Shown: one piece after another, positions 16,298 through 21,116 of the stretch
How positions within the stretch are numbered: the stretch's first letter is position 1
Layout: the number at the start of each line of letters is the position of its first letter
DNA from: Candidatus Nealsonbacteria bacterium RIFCSPHIGHO2_02_FULL_43_13
Lineage (GTDB): Bacteria; Patescibacteriota; Minisyncoccia; Minisyncoccales; MHMH01
Assembly: GCA_001819295.1 (NCBI GenBank)
Contig: MHMD01000026.1
Span: 8,219 to 29,334 of the forward strand
Direction: 5' to 3'
DNA length: 21,116 nucleotides
The notes under the pieces: generated by a model
The model's input: the letters and a program-made list of their open reading frames with translations, nothing else
What the model was told of the DNA's origin: nothing
The model's database searches: none
Translations under genes and position numbers: made by a program

Positions 16298-17043
16298 TAA
16301 AGAGATTGGTTGAGAGTTTCGACGAGCTTGTCCAGCTTACCGTCCATAATACCTTCCAAATTATGGAAGCTTTTTTTGACGCGGTGATCGGTGAGGCGAT
16401 CTTGGGGAAAATTGTAGGTTCTGACTTTTTCGGCGCGTTTCGCCCAGCCGATCTGGGCCCTTCTTTTTTCGTCTAAGGCGCCAAGTTGTTCCATTTCCTG
16501 TTTTTCGAGAATTTTAGCAGCTAAAAGGCCGATGGCGCTTTCTTTGTTTTGCTGAAGATTTCTTTCGGTATGGCATTCCACGGTCAGGCCGGTAGGCAAG
16601 TGGATAACTCTAACGGCCGTCATTCTTTTATTAACGTTTTGTCCGCCCGGCCCAGTTGCCTTACAAACTTCAACCCTAATATCAACCGGATTCATTTTAA
16701 TTTGAGCCTCTTGGGGCTTGGGCAAAACCGCCACCGAAGCCGTAGAGGTGTGGACTCGTCCCTGTTTTTCGGTTTTAGGAATCCTTTGCACTCGGTGAAC
16801 TCCGCCCTCGTACTGCATTTTCGAAAAAGCCCCATTGCCTTGTAACTCTAAAACAATTTCTTTGTAACCGCCTAATTCCGAAGCCCTGGAATCTAAAACA
16901 TCCTGCCGCCAACCTTGGAGTACGGCGTATTTTGAATACATGCGATAAAGGTCAGCCACAAAAAGAGCCGCTTCTTCGCCACCGGCGCCAGCCCTAATTT
17001 CGATGATAGCCTCATCGAGTTTTATTCCTCGGGAATCAACCAT
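16297..17043 (-). CDS. prfA: Peptide chain release factor 1 lacking domain 1
   Basis: Class I release factor for UAA/UAG codons. Codon-reading PKT (89-91, in [14 protein letters not shown]) fits the PxT motif of RF1, not the SPF motif of RF2. The catalytic GGQ is at 133-135 (GPGGQNVNK). [12 protein letters not shown] and the final helix are normal. At 248 residues it begins exactly at domain 2 ([16 protein letters not shown]), so the N-terminal helical domain of roughly 100 residues found in E. coli-type RF1 is absent. It is not hidden upstream, since the bL31 stop lies 2 nt before the ATG. PxT and GGQ are intact, so peptide release should work; contacts made by domain 1 near uL11 must be missing or replaced. 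Confidence 0.92.
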
Positions 17044-17045
17044 AA

Positions 17046-17270
17046 TTACCTTTTCTTCCTTAGACCTTCTTTTTTAGCCAGTCTCTTTCTAAACTTCTGA
17101 ACCTGGCCTACCGTATCGAGAACCTTATCTTTGCCGGTATAAAAAGGGTGGCACTTTGAGCAAATTTCCACGTCCAGATATTCTTTAGTGGAGCCTGTGG
17201 TGAAAGTATTGCCGCAAGCGCACTGCACTCTTGCTGAAGGATAATATTGTGGGTGGATATCTTTCTTCAT
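17046..17270 (-). CDS. rpmE: Ribosomal protein bL31, zinc-binding form
   Basis: Large-subunit protein of 74 residues near the central protuberance and inter-subunit bridge B1. The C+ form is recognised by CAC (C17, C19) and CSKC (C37, C40), which bind Zn. [12 protein letters not shown] and [17 protein letters not shown] are typical. The gene leads a minus-strand unit with RF1 and the methyltransferase and is divergent from rpsB. Its promoter places the transcript start at or within a nucleotide or so of the ATG, so it is probably leaderless. Confidence 0.96.
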
Positions 17271-17305
17271 GCAATTATCGTACCTTTAAATTTTTTATTC
17301 GTCAA
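17271..17305 (-). promoter_or_regulatory. Promoter of rpmE-prfA-methyltransferase, predicted leaderless
   Basis: On the minus strand: -35 TTGACG (17305-17300), 17-bp spacer, -10 TACGAT (17282-17277), then six bases to the ATG at 17270. The transcript should begin at or next to the start codon. Confidence 0.6.
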
Positions 17306-17318
17306 GATATTCCATATG

Positions 17319-17347
17319 TTGCGGTTTCTCCAAAAGCATGGTATGCT
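17319..17347 (+). promoter_or_regulatory. Putative rpsB promoter
   Basis: -35 TTGCGG (17319-17324), 17-bp spacer, -10 TATGCT (17342-17347). The start site would be about 10 nt before the ATG at 17364, giving a very short leader with no Shine-Dalgarno sequence. I saw no leader structure. Confidence 0.45.
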
Positions 17348-17363
17348 TAAAACCAGATGTTAT

Positions 17364-18083
17364 ATGACTAAAGAAAAATTCAATATCAATACCGAAGAAA
17401 TGATGAAAGCCGGCGTCCAGTTAGGACACAGTACTTCCAGGATCAATCCTAAAATGCAGCCGTATCTTTCGGGAGTGAGAAGCCGAATACACATCATTGA
17501 TTTGGAAAAAACCAAAGAAAAACTAACCGAGGCTTTAGAGTTCATCCAAAGTATTATCGCAGAAAACAAGGTGTTGCTTTTGGTTGGAACGAAAATAGAA
17601 GTAAAGGCTTTAATCAAAAGTGTCGCCGAAGAATGTTCTTTGCCTTATGTTTCCGAGCGTTGGCTGGGAGGCACTTTTACAAACTTCGGCGCGATTTTAA
17701 AAAGAATCGATTACTTTAAGGAATTAGAGAGGAAAAAAGCCGCAGGCGAACTAGAGAAATATACCAAAAAAGAAAAAGCCGGCATTGAAGACGAGATCCA
17801 AAAAATGGAGATAAAATTCGGTGGGATCAAGGAAATGAAAAAGATTCCCGATGCTATTTTGATCACTGACGTGAATGAAGATGAGCTGGCGATCAGGGAG
17901 GCAAAGCAAGCCAATGTCAAAATCATCGGCATTTGCGATACGAACGTTGACCCGACATTGACCGATTTTCCGATTCCGGCCAGCGATGACGCTGTTTCTT
18001 CTCTCAAATATATTTTGGAAAAAGTTAAAGAAACGGTAAAATCAACTAAGCCGAAAGTAAAGGCGGAAAAGACGGAAAAATAA
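17364..18083 (+). CDS. rpsB: Ribosomal protein uS2
   Basis: Small-subunit protein of 239 residues. The ATG at 17364 is chosen because MTKEKFNINTEEMMKAGVQLGHST is the normal uS2 start; an upstream in-frame ATG at 17247 would add 39 unrelated residues and overlap bL31. VRSRIHIIDLEKT, ERWLGGTFTNF and the C-terminal ILITDVNEDELAIREAKQANVKIIGICDTNVDP are canonical. The tail is Lys-rich. tsf follows after 4 nt, the order common in bacteria. Confidence 0.97.
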   Translation: MTKEKFNINTEEMMKAGVQLGHSTSRINPKMQPYLSGVRSRIHIIDLEKTKEKLTEALEFIQSIIAENKVLLLVGTKIEVKALIKSVAEECSLPYVSERWLGGTFTNFGAILKRIDYFKELERKKAAGELEKYTKKEKAGIEDEIQKMEIKFGGIKEMKKIPDAILITDVNEDELAIREAKQANVKIIGICDTNVDPTLTDFPIPASDDAVSSLKYILEKVKETVKSTKPKVKAEKTEK

Positions 18084-18087
18084 GAAC

Positions 18088-18528
18088 ATGATAGACCAAA
18101 TCAAAAAATTAAGAGCCGAAACCAGCGTTTCAATTATTGAATGCGAAAAAGCCTTAAAAGAAGCCAATGGCGACATGACTCAGGCTAAAGAGATTTTAAG
18201 AAAATGGGGCCAGAATTTTGCCGAACAAAAGAAAGACAGGGTTACAGCCCAGGGTATTATTGATTCTTACATCCACCCTAATAAAAAAGTGGGGGTCCTG
18301 TTAGAATTAAACTGCGAAACTGATTTTGTAGCCAAGGGCCAATACTTCCAAAATTTAGCTCATGAGCTATGCTTGCAAATTGCCGGCATGGGGGATATTG
18401 AAACTCCGCTGCTATCCCAGCCCTGGATCAAAGATCCATCAAAAACTATCAAAGACTTAGTGCAAGAGCAAATTTCAAAGACAGGGGAAAACATCATTGT
18501 CAAAAGATTTATCAGATACCAGCTTTAA
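18088..18528 (+). CDS. tsf: Elongation factor Ts, short form
   Basis: Nucleotide-exchange factor for EF-Tu, 146 residues. The UBA-like N-terminal helices (IKKLRAETSVSIIECEKALKEA, 5-26) and the exchange motif TDFVA (78-82, in LNCETDFVAKG) that inserts at the EF-Tu nucleotide site are intact. The E. coli protein has about 283 residues with a duplicated core; here only one core subdomain and a brief C-terminal segment (GENIIVKRFIRYQL) are kept, a little less than the 196-residue Thermus form. Such short EF-Ts fits a streamlined genome. It is followed by a 17-bp perfect hairpin (18538-18579). Confidence 0.94.
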   Translation: MIDQIKKLRAETSVSIIECEKALKEANGDMTQAKEILRKWGQNFAEQKKDRVTAQGIIDSYIHPNKKVGVLLELNCETDFVAKGQYFQNLAHELCLQIAGMGDIETPLLSQPWIKDPSKTIKDLVQEQISKTGENIIVKRFIRYQL

Positions 18529-18537
18529 TGATTAATC

Positions 18538-18579
18538 GCAGTCCGACTGCCCTTAAAATTAAAAGGGCAGTCGGACTGC
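18538..18579. repeat. Perfect 17-bp inverted repeat built from nested palindromes
   Basis: A 17-bp perfect stem with an 8-nt AT loop lies between tsf and the next gene. Each arm contains a 13-nt palindrome with one odd central base: GCAGTCCGACTGC on the left, GCAGTCGGACTGC on the right. No T tract follows on either strand, so it is not a standard terminator, although it could stabilise the rpsB-tsf mRNA end. Confidence 0.75.
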
Positions 18580-18589
18580 CCAAATATCC

Positions 18590-18940
18590 GTGTTTGAGTT
18601 AATTTCCATCGTCATTTTTATTTTGAGTCTGGCCGGCATGGCCGTGATTTTATGGCGCAAAATCCCGGCTTTATGCAAATTGCCGGAGCGTGAGTTTGCC
18701 TTCTATAATTCTTTAACGGTAAAAATCGGTAAGGGAATAAAAAGAATACCGGTCGTAAAAAACTTTTCTTACGACCTGTATCTGCAAAAAACGCTTTCTA
18801 AAGTTCGCGTTTTAACTATGAAAACAGAAAACAAAACTGGTCATTGGCTGGAAAGATTGCGCCAAAAGAATTCTAAAAAGAACCAGACCAACAACGATGA
18901 TTATTGGGATACTCTTAAGAAAGCCAAAGACGATAAGTAA
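18590..18940 (+). CDS. Small single-span membrane protein of unknown function
   Basis: Protein of 116 residues starting at GTG (18590). One hydrophobic helix (residues 2-22) is followed by WRKIPALCKLPEREF and a basic, Lys/Asn-rich cytoplasmic tail of about 90 residues ending in acidic-basic repeats (NNDDYWDTLKKAKDDK). No family is recognised. From experience, proteins opening with a helix and a WRKIP-L-LPE motif recur in Parcubacteria-type genomes, which supports its being real. It begins 11 nt after the 18538-18579 hairpin and ends 9 nt before tRNA-Thr, so co-transcription with the tRNA is possible. Confidence 0.65.
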   Translation: MFELISIVIFILSLAGMAVILWRKIPALCKLPEREFAFYNSLTVKIGKGIKRIPVVKNFSYDLYLQKTLSKVRVLTMKTENKTGHWLERLRQKNSKKNQTNNDDYWDTLKKAKDDK

Positions 18941-18949
18941 AAATAATTT

Positions 18950-19021
18950 GCCGAGGTAGCTCAATGGTAGAGCAGCGCTTTTGTAAAGCGAAGGTTGGGG
19001 GTCCGAATCCTCTCCTCGGCT
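18950..19021 (+). tRNA. tRNA-Thr (anticodon UGU)
   Basis: Complete cloverleaf: acceptor GCCGAGG (18950-18956) pairs with CCTCGGC (19014-19020), followed by a T discriminator base. The D arm is GCTC-AATGGTAG-AGC, the anticodon loop TTTGTAA gives UGU (codon ACA), and the T arm has TCCGAAT in its loop. The top of the anticodon stem has a G-A mismatch and the T stem uses G-U pairs. The CCA end is not encoded. Confidence 0.93.
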
Positions 19022-19024
19022 CAC

Positions 19025-19056
19025 AGGCCGACTTTTTATAGGCGGTTTTTTGTTTT
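19025..19056 (+). terminator. Probable terminator after tRNA-Thr
   Basis: A weak GC stem (around 19025-19030 with 19043-19048, with G-U pairs) is followed by a T-rich run TTTTTTGTTTT. The stem is poor, so the call rests mostly on the T tract and position. Confidence 0.4.
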
Positions 19057-19075
19057 AGGAAATCCAACAAATGAG

Positions 19076-19160
19076 GCTGGAAGCGCTTTCATAATAGATA
19101 TCTCTTTCGTTTTCGAAAGGAAACGATCTATTGTGAAAGCACTCCCGGCTTTTTTATTTT
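19076..19160 (+). terminator. Long hairpin with T tract (terminator or small structured RNA)
   Basis: The left arm (19076-19099) pairs with the right arm (19126-19149) over 24 positions with two mismatches and two G-U wobbles. The loop contains a second hairpin, CTTTCG-TTTT-CGAAAG. The right arm runs straight into TTTTTTATTTT. It is much longer than a normal terminator stem. G-U pairs and mismatches argue for selection as RNA, in the plus direction. Confidence 0.6.
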
Positions 19161-19172
19161 AACGGATTTTAG

Positions 19173-19213
19173 GATTTCCGAAATCTTTAATATATGATTA
19201 GATTTCGGAAATC
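19173..19213. repeat. Perfect 14-bp inverted repeat, same design as the 18538 element
   Basis: A 14-bp perfect stem with a 13-nt AT loop. The arms contain GATTTCCGAAATC and GATTTCGGAAATC, each a 13-nt palindrome with an odd central base, exactly the layout of the 18538-18579 repeat with different bases. It lies 20 nt upstream of the -35 of the mini-gene promoter. Confidence 0.7.
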
Positions 19214-19232
19214 AACGAAAAGCACATGCCCC

Positions 19233-19260
19233 TTGACAGAGTTTTAGCAAAGATTATAAT
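19233..19260 (+). promoter_or_regulatory. Perfect-consensus promoter of the Cys-rich mini-gene
   Basis: -35 TTGACA (19233-19238), 16-bp spacer, -10 TATAAT (19255-19260), the best promoter in the window. The start site at about 19267 lies 16 nt before the ATG at 19283. It may also feed the rRNA if the downstream terminator is read through. Confidence 0.8.
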
Positions 19261-19282
19261 AACAACTGTAAAAGACAAACAT

Positions 19283-19354
19283 ATGGCTGCGAAGAAAAAG
19301 AAAAAAAACAAGAAGCTCTGCCCGTGTTGTGGTTGTGCTCCTTGTAAATGCTGA
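19283..19354 (+). CDS. 23-residue Lys- and Cys-rich mini-protein
   Basis: Short frame ATG to TGA. Residues 1-12 hold seven lysines (MAAKKKKKNKK), then a compact tail CPCCGCAPCKC with six cysteines out of 11 residues (C13, C15, C16, C18, C21, C23). It is basic and lacks a signal peptide. It sits alone between a perfect-consensus promoter (19233-19260) and a good intrinsic terminator (19386-19413), so a transcript of about 145 nt carries little else. The Cys spacing could bind zinc, copper or an Fe-S cluster, and the Lys block could bind RNA or DNA; both are inference. No Shine-Dalgarno sequence is seen, as for most genes here. The alternative is a non-coding RNA whose frame is chance; the ordered composition argues against that. 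No family is recognised. Confidence 0.6.
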   Translation: MAAKKKKKNKKLCPCCGCAPCKC

Positions 19355-19385
19355 AGGATTTATCGCTTTAAGAAAGACTTGAAAT

Positions 19386-19413
19386 AATCAGGATCTTTTC
19401 CTGATTTTTGTTT
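19386..19413 (+). terminator. Intrinsic terminator of the mini-gene
   Basis: AATCAGGA (19386-19393), a 5-nt loop, and TCCTGATT (19399-19406) form an 8-bp perfect stem running into TTTTT. It separates the mini-gene from the 16S gene. Confidence 0.8.
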
Positions 19414-19491
19414 CCAGCGGGAAGAACATTAAAAATAAAATAAGTAAGTTAACTAACTACGGTTTTTTAGAGTTGCTTCGTAATATATAGT
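19414..19491 (+). other. 16S upstream region without a clear promoter
   Basis: AT-rich leader containing AAGTTAACTAAC near 19447-19457 (core AGTTAACT is palindromic) and a T-rich stretch just before the rRNA. -10-like TAATAT (19481-19486) has no matching -35. No boxA-like antitermination site was recognised. Confidence 0.4.
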
Positions 19492-19981
<490 letters not shown>

Positions 19982-20096
19982 GAACCCATTAAGGGTTGGC
20001 GCAGAGCTTCTCCAGCAATGGAGAATAGGAAAACTTAGCTTATATGCTGGGACATCTTTCGTTGTCCGCTGAATGTTTCCAAAAGGAACGCGACGA

Positions 20097-20125
20097 AAGA
20101 CAATCAGCAGGGAAGTTGTTATAAT
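20097..20125 (+). promoter_or_regulatory. Possible intron-internal promoter for the endonuclease gene
   Basis: AAGACA (20097-20102), 17-bp spacer, TATAAT (20120-20125), with the ATG 12 nt further on. It overlaps the Q core element, so the bases are partly constrained by RNA folding and the promoter may be fortuitous. Confidence 0.35.
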
Positions 20126-20137
20126 TAGAGTGATAAA

Positions 20138-20737
20138 ATGGCTAAGATTTCTGAAAAACAAAAAGCGATTATTTTAGGTACACTTTTAGGCGATGGCTAC
20201 ATCTATCAAGATAAGTATGGAGGCTGCCGCTTAGAAATAAAGCATTGTAAAAGTCAAAAAGATTATGTTTTTTGGCTTTATGAAAAACTACGGACGATTT
20301 GTCCGGGTAAACCTAAAGAAAGGGCTGATAATCATCAGTGGAAATTCAATACTGAATCCAATTCTGATGTAATTAGTTTTAGGAAATTATTTTATCCGAA
20401 AGGAATAAAAATAGTTCCTCGCAATATTTCAGAAATTTTAACCAAACCTCTTAGTCTCGCGATTTGGTATATGGATGACGGGAGCTTAGATTTTAGACCA
20501 AAAAGTCATTGTGCTTTCAGTTTAAAGACTAATGCTTTCACGCTAGAAGAATGCCGACTATTATCCAAAATTTTAGATAATAATTTCGGAATTAAATCTT
20601 CTGTCCAATATCCACTTTGTCGAGGCAAAAGATATCCTCAAATTTATATCGGAAAGAGTGGTCGCGATCAATTCGTAAAGACGATCGCGCCATTTATTAT
20701 AAATTGTTTCCAATATAAATTACCTCATTATAATTAA
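20138..20737 (+). CDS. LAGLIDADG homing endonuclease inside the 16S intron
   Basis: Intron-encoded DNA endonuclease of 199 residues with two LAGLIDADG motifs, so it probably acts as a monomer. Motif 1 is LGTLLGDGY (13-21, catalytic D19) and motif 2 is LAIWYMDDG (107-115, catalytic D114). It should cut intronless 16S genes around the 516 junction and promote spread of the intron; some relatives also help splicing as maturases. The frame is complete, with no stops or missing acidic residues, which suggests recent or continuing mobility. It starts at 20138 just after core element Q and stops 3 nt before R. Expression may rely on the rRNA precursor or on the internal promoter at 20097. Confidence 0.92.
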   Translation: MAKISEKQKAIILGTLLGDGYIYQDKYGGCRLEIKHCKSQKDYVFWLYEKLRTICPGKPKERADNHQWKFNTESNSDVISFRKLFYPKGIKIVPRNISEILTKPLSLAIWYMDDGSLDFRPKSHCAFSLKTNAFTLEECRLLSKILDNNFGIKSSVQYPLCRGKRYPQIYIGKSGRDQFVKTIAPFIINCFQYKLPHYN

Positions 20738-20852
20738 CCCCTCAGAGACTTGTCTCGTTATTGAGACGGATGGGTGCTTTTAAACATCCATAACACGCTA
20801 AGCTCCTCGCAAGAGGATGATGATATAGTCCATTTAACTATCAAGTTAGATA

Positions 20853-21116
20853 GCCAGCAGCAGCGGTAATACAGAGACTCCAAGCGTTATCCGGATTTAT
20901 TGGGCGTAAAGGGTCCGTAGGCGGTAAGAATAGTCTTTGGTCAAATACTCAGGGCTTAACCTCGAGGACGCCAGAGATACTTTCTAACTAGAAGGCGCTA
21001 GGGGCTGATGGAACGGTCGGTGTAGGGGTGAAATCCGTTGATATCGACCGGAACACCAAAAGCGAAGGCATTCAGCTGGGGCGACCTTGACGCTGAGGGA
21101 CGAAAGCGTGGGCATA
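20853..21116 (+). rRNA. rrs: 16S ribosomal RNA, 3' exon (3' end outside window)
   Basis: Resumes at (G)CCAGCAGCAGCGGTAATAC, the 530 loop, and continues through GGATTTATTGGGCGTAAAGGG to about E. coli position 780 (GACGCTGAGG-ACGAAAGCGTGGG), where the window ends. The base equivalent to C526 is A, which mismatches the universal 515F primer but pairs with U505. ACTCC (20877-20881) pairs with GGAGT near the end of the 5' exon, so the helix around the intron site is intact after splicing. Confidence 0.94.

Follow-up and report, generated by a model that had tools for sequence, protein, structure and literature searches.

The 72-nt reading frame upstream of 16S rRNA in our window, the whole 21,116-nucleotide stretch of DNA that we analysed, is best read as the first cistron of the rRNA transcript, a predicted translated leader ORF. 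The 23-residue Lys/Cys-rich frame announced by an earlier note on this DNA was found at 19283–19354, with seven Lys within residues 4–11 (eight overall) and six Cys within the final 11 residues. Its stop lies about 140 nt from the start of 16S (~19492–19499), both being on the + strand. The features of the region are as follows.

18950–19022, + strand: tRNA-Thr (TGT), the neighbour 5' of the rRNA operon (ARAGORN and Rfam)
19073–19152, + strand: long hairpin followed by a T-run, where the upstream transcript probably ends (fold −40.7 kcal/mol, z −7.0)
19233–19260, + strand: predicted rRNA-operon promoter TTGACA-16-TATAAT (12/12 match)
19270–19275, + strand: pre-ATG box AAAAGA, complementary to TCTTTT of the downstream hairpin (6 pairs, fractional rank 0.46)
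19283–19354, + strand: leader ORF MAAKKKKKNKKLCPCCGCAPCKC (ATG at 19283, TGA at 19354; 23 codons, 72 nt, stop included)
19386–19413, + strand: terminator-like hairpin and T-tract between the ORF and 16S, AATCAGGA-TCTTT-TCCTGATT then TTTG
19424–19436, + strand: boxA-like GAACATTAAAAAT, read from the sequence, with similar GAACNTTGAAAATT in relatives
19463–19480, + strand: recurring leader element TTTTTTAGAGTTGCTTCG directly 5' of 16S, seen by eye in many relatives' leaders
19492–21116, + strand: 16S rRNA, truncated by the window end and interrupted by an insert (Rfam RF00177, model positions 1–769 of 1533 over 1625 nt)

Only the tRNA and 16S reached the Rfam gathering score in the window, and no leader RNA family did. 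None of 200 shuffles folded as well as the hairpin at 19073–19152; the whole leader segment (19266–19420) folded no better than its shuffles (z −1.1). The sequence at 19424–19436 is a putative counterpart of rrn boxA. A tRNA occupies the equivalent place in two relatives (G007 and G001).

TTGACA-16-TATAAT was the sole 12/12 promoter match within the scanned part of the window (17000–21116), and we found no other promoter-like site on the + strand between 19260 and 16S. We located 16S in 83 of 100 relatives and, by pattern, in 140 of 243 genomes of the order, and compared 160 fetched 16S leaders from 39 families, all of the same Patescibacteria order as the window. In 144 of them, a sigma-70-type promoter could be called ahead of 16S. 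Six other members of the window's family had readable leaders (G003 and G008 had no 16S match), and five of these lack the ORF. In four (G004, G005, G006 and G007), a 12/12 promoter and a hairpin precede 16S; in the fifth, G001, the promoter matches at 10/12 and the hairpin is missing as well. The sixth member, G002, retains the frame together with promoter and hairpin. Because close relatives lacking the ORF keep the promoter before 16S, the element at 19233–19260 is, on this comparison of leaders, the promoter of the rRNA operon, and the ORF therefore sits inside the rRNA leader. The earlier note had proposed a self-contained gene driven by a promoter of its own. Promoter, short frame and T-tract hairpin do follow one another as they would in a stand-alone gene with its own promoter and terminator and no tie to rRNA expression. 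We found no promoter for the ORF separate from its neighbour's, however, and with ORF-less relatives carrying the promoter at the corresponding place 5' of 16S, such a gene is very improbable. The absence of the ORF from five of six family members also indicates that it is dispensable. Loss of the frame with promoter and terminator kept, which the earlier note had named as evidence against its proposal, was seen in four of the six readable family members; since the ORF is present in 20 of the 160 leaders of the order, the case for the peptide survives such losses.

These 20 cases were recovered by looking upstream of 16S in related genomes, as had been proposed. Each ORF is short and Lys-rich, carries Cys towards its end and occupies the same position in the leader; together they represent 11 of the 39 families. 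Nineteen came from the initial leader set, and the other, MAKKKGKKGGCSC of G047, lies in a leader that exceeded the first length cut. Examples include MAKKKAKKKKKCCCG, MAKKKKKKKSECCCCC, MAKKKAKKKKVC, MAKKKAKKKACCCCKK, MAKKKAKKKKRDCCCK, MAREKETKCNCGGGCGCGGNCGC and MADKKSAKKVNKKKAAPKTCACSCNCCPSNK, and the ORF of the family member G002 encodes MAKKKKAKKKKSDCGCC. A single Cys is present in the ORFs of G014, G060 and G026, and Lys-rich frames without Cys were found in three more leaders (G035, G074 and G108). A pattern scan of a named genome collection returned 62 stretches, six of which are the leader ORF, all in Patescibacteria and all 5' of 16S; they include 'Candidatus Nealsonbacteria' RBG_13_42_11 and CG08 36_22. 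The strict motif CPCCGC occurred in this genome only among 247, a count that is misleading taken alone. A search of 100 relatives with the single peptide gave three weak matches besides the window, all rejected as unrelated frames or, in L006, as a different small ORF. The latter (G098, ~1525–1599) encodes MCETCGCTPAEPEKEGEAEEEKEE, with Cys first and an acidic tail.

On a poorly resolved 16S tree (53 rows, 492 columns, 16 rows with the ORF), presence of the ORF required 11 label changes versus 13.9 with shuffled labels, and 24 of 500 shuffles reached 11 or fewer. The distribution of the ORF is patchy, and gains and repeated losses look alike on so weak a tree. In G128 (L187) and G129 (L188), the box GAAGAGAC is followed by ATG AAT TAA where relatives have the peptide; these start-stop remnants suggest that initiation can persist without a peptide.

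The ORF counts were set against chance in 150 leaders of the order, after removal of 10 of the 160 that were too short or had no called promoter. Frames were counted if they were Lys/Arg-rich, had Cys in their second half and started within 48 nt of the −10 box, and 300 dinucleotide shuffles served as reference. Frames with at least one Cys were present in 21 leaders versus a shuffle mean of 2.7 (maximum 8), two of the 21 (G061 and G140) looking like chance frames. At least two Cys were found in 17 leaders (shuffle mean 0.31) and at least three in 14 (shuffle mean 0.03, maximum 1), which bears out the claim that the Lys/Cys composition is unlikely by chance. Over 19 ORFs, Cys was encoded 62 times in frame versus 1 and 3 times in the other frames. 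The corresponding counts for Lys were 129 versus 69 and 61, so that Lys richness partly reflects A-rich composition. Synonymous and non-synonymous change, a comparison suggested by the earlier note, could be read from 13 ORFs starting with MAKK (11 with Cys, plus G035 and G074): codon positions 1 and 2 are invariant and position 3 is free (Ala C5/A5/T3; Lys G7/A6 at both codons). Third positions vary while residues stay, which argues for selection on the peptide or the meaning of its codons and not on nucleotides. By this pattern, the leader ORF is under selection for one or the other, and the proposal of a protein-level micropeptide too short for gene finders gains support. That the frame has no function, being a chance product of an A-rich leader or kept merely as a spacer, would be in keeping with the partly compositional Lys richness and the patchy distribution, but is barely credible given the codon-position pattern and the 14 leaders with at least three Cys.

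Outside the order, a phylum-wide sample of 239 genomes provided 182 with a 16S match among the matches listed, and from these, among the matches listed, 70 leaders (11 from the same class and 59 from other classes). No such Lys/Cys ORF lay within reach of a called promoter in any of the 70 leaders among the matches listed. Six of these 70, again among the matches listed, had no promoter call, and one of the six, L344, has a loosely fitting frame; seven more outside-order sequences among the matches listed have such frames elsewhere upstream. A class-wide search for a promoter followed by an MA-x-K start returned 38 places in 33 of 383 genomes. The rRNA leaders among the 30 places read were L106 (G184) and L107 (G068), both from the same order, and one of the 8 other places was the known G026 leader. 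A profile built from 19 peptides matched in 13 of 243 order genomes, recovering 8 of the 20 known ORFs and missing the window's own; at this sensitivity, the order-wide search gave one plausible unlinked copy, in G209. A match in G027 was rejected as out of frame within a phosphoribosyltransferase-like gene, and those in G200 and G206 and a second one in G097 were seen as short translations only.

The copy in G209 (L281, reverse strand, 1501 of the reversed locus) is a Lys/Cys mini-ORF, MAKKQKKLKKRIITCRCCG, followed by a hairpin. It lies directly downstream of a 336-aa gene resembling a radical SAM/SPASM enzyme and could be the precursor of a modified peptide. Three archaeal contigs (L243, L258 and L221) also carry small Lys/Cys ORFs, none within 800 nt of a 16S start: tandem MAKKKKAKKK and MAKKKSKKSAKKCSCC, the SEC-C-like MAKKKGKKKEKLCSCGSGKPTSECCGC, and one of 40 aa. 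These look-alikes may be unrelated to the leader ORF.

The earlier note had placed a terminator immediately after the frame. A hairpin with a T-tract is indeed present (stem-loop 19386–19406, T-tract through 19413), but it begins 31 nt past the stop codon. Its placement between the ORF and 16S makes a conditional terminator or a processing element more likely, and we infer that the hairpin is one of these. Of 116 order leaders no shorter than 100 nt, 59 carry a terminator-like hairpin, versus an expectation of 2.6 by mononucleotide shuffling; outside the order, among the matches listed, 14 of 63 leaders do so, versus 0.6. Among ORF-bearing leaders, 13 of 19 have a T-tract hairpin between the ORF and 16S (that of G049 at a doubtful place), two more have one by a looser rule (G078 and G097), and G047 has one by eye; none was seen in 4 of the 20 (G014, G060, G043 and G068). 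ORF and hairpin are thus separable, with four ORF leaders lacking the hairpin and many hairpins occurring without an ORF, and the persistence of the ORF without the hairpin indicates that it is not merely part of an attenuator. This separability would also suit a pre-16S processing site accompanied by the ORF as an independent passenger. A T-tract abutting the stem and a competing upstream box better fit a terminator switch, however, and we regard the passenger explanation as highly unlikely. In ORF-less leaders of the order (e.g., L013, L031 and L032), a hairpin with interior GAAGGTATCTAA...TTGGATGTCTTC recurs before 16S; it has a covarying box upstream, and there was no Rfam match at the equivalent place of the window.

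We put at slightly below even the chance that the peptide predicted from the first cistron is a small, basic, thiol-rich factor that is produced alongside rRNA and works in trans. The rRNA promoter would drive the leader ORF ahead of 16S, and the peptide, made in step with rRNA, would act on ribosomes or on their assembly or protection. Its Lys block would bind rRNA or the ribosome, and its Cys tail would hold metal or serve as thiols. At the hairpin, conditional termination or processing would apportion the output to a short message for the peptide and to complete rRNA. A role in trans is favoured by the persistence of the ORF without the hairpin and by the archaeal look-alikes away from 16S (L221, L243 and L258); within the order, a small Lys/Cys ORF away from 16S occurs in one genome, G209.

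The variation of the Cys residues weakens a role in trans. Their number ranges from 1 to 6 over 19 ORFs with no common spacing, and these ORFs did not have the conserved Cys/His number and spacing of a fixed-site metal-binding peptide (zinc ribbon or SEC-C), making a single fixed site for metal less likely. Metallothionein-like and SEC-C metal-binding peptides are Lys/Cys-rich with CxC and CC pairs. The window's peptide shares this richness and these pairs, but differs in its lack of a profile match, the absence of a fixed Cys spacing and its location in an rRNA leader. Six peptides, including the window's, had no match in Pfam; in NCBIfam, they gave only four weak matches below the cut-off, all from L258 and none from the window's peptide. 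One of the four, from this Woesearchaeota look-alike, was to SWIM/SEC-C. A search of PDB sequences gave one weak match (E 4.8). The loose Cys spacing would be easier to reconcile with pausing or codon reading than with a well-defined site for metal.

Alternatively, the ORF might act in cis as the leader ORF of an rRNA attenuator, a possibility that we take seriously while judging the chances to be against it. A ribosome starting or pausing on the ORF would cover the upstream box, the terminator would then form and rRNA transcription would drop; as a corollary, few free ribosomes would mean more rRNA. The leader location, the T-tract hairpins between ORF and 16S, the box directly 5' of the ATG in many ORF-bearing leaders, the start-stop remnants, and the loose number and place of Cys at the ORF end, which resemble regulatory codons, are all consistent with such an attenuator; the four ORF-bearing leaders without the hairpin are not. 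The box is complementary to the hairpin loop and 3' arm, and its pairing would exclude the hairpin. In the window, this pairing amounts to 6 bp with a rank of 0.46 among other leaders, which is not significant alone and counts against an attenuator here. In relatives such as G026, G063 and G054, the pre-ATG box is longer and its pairing, judged by eye, perfect (GAAGAGA/TCTCTTC, a form shared with G108, G130, G128 and G129). Other box/hairpin forms are GAAGACAT/ATGTCTTC (G004, and inside longer runs in G036 and G089), GAAGACAA/TTGTCTTC (G127), AAGACGA/TCGTCTT (G081), GAAGACA/TGTCTTC (G028), GCGAAGATAT/ATATCTTCGT (G024) and GAAAAGAC/GTCTTTTC (G002).

Over 56 leaders (3 of 59 dropped for having little sequence 5' of the hairpin), a leader's own box and hairpin paired better than permuted partners (360.5 vs. 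303.8, sd 7.1, p ≤ 2 × 10−4), a p-value that, like those below, is flattered by the non-independence of related leaders; some top scores (G121, G049 and G088) look artefactual, which tells against the attenuator. The covariation persisted in ORF-less leaders (p = 2 × 10−4, n = 43, 2 of 45 dropped), with one ORF-less leader per family (p = 2 × 10−4, n = 17) and after removal of the commonest ATGTCTTC class (p = 0.004, n = 33); a control stretch farther upstream gave p = 0.30 (n = 8). In ORF-bearing leaders, the pre-ATG box did not covary significantly with the hairpin (p = 0.18, n = 14), the stretch from stop to hairpin gave p = 0.006 with the misplaced hairpin of G049 included, and the ORF itself gave p = 0.085, all of which weighs against an attenuator. 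The pairing in G026, G063 and G054 is beyond the reach of permutation because box and loop hardly vary there. A common stem at the Cys codons was not general and was rejected (19 ORFs, mean z −0.56; strong only in G186 and G189), a further point against an attenuator. Overall, a switch-like box-hairpin element is supported in ORF-less leaders and only suggested in ORF-bearing ones.

A leader micropeptide ORF joined to a conditional terminator, such that translation of the ORF by existing ribosomes sets the output of new rRNA, is unlikely. If true, ribosome supply would feed back directly on the synthesis of rRNA in bacteria of minimal genome, with no regulator protein.

In the open-licence literature, outside which most subscription papers lie, we found no precedent for an rRNA-leader peptide or a selected frame in an rRNA leader. 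In trp-type attenuators, a short ORF is followed by a terminator-like hairpin and then by the regulated biosynthesis genes. The order of elements is alike here, but rRNA lies downstream and the ORF-bearing leaders have no common competition between ORF and hairpin. E. coli rrn operons combine leader pausing or attenuation with boxA antitermination, and signals before 16S affect elongation; we know of no leader peptide there. Leader signals before 16S are common to both, but here the ORF and hairpin lie upstream of the boxA-like sequence. Mycobacterial polycysteine leader ORFs are the subject of Canestrari et al. 2020, by whose title operonic gene expression reportedly responds to cysteine. As far as that title goes, they too are very short ORFs that sit in an operon's 5' leader and have Cys codons close to their end; they differ in that here the operon is ribosomal and a Lys-rich body precedes the Cys. 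These ORFs and E. coli rrn leader attenuation are the nearest parallels.

The host group comprises tiny, mostly uncultured bacteria. In this group, the RNA that precedes rRNA seems to encode a very small Lys/Cys peptide as well, which would couple peptide output to ribosome production. The gain would be either a ribosome-linked micropeptide that ordinary gene finding misses because of its size or, in bacteria with reduced genomes, a route by which ribosome supply feeds back on rRNA transcription, an old question.

Two further elements were observed around the leader. The insert that splits 16S carries a 199-aa ORF (20138–20737) presumably resembling a LAGLIDADG-type homing endonuclease, so that the insert is probably an intron. 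Upstream of the promoter, a palindromic GATTTCCGAAATC-type repeat lies at 19157–19213, and two similar places in the same genome (G000 C8 and C19) show 79–82% identity; these palindromes are perhaps a dispersed repeat family.
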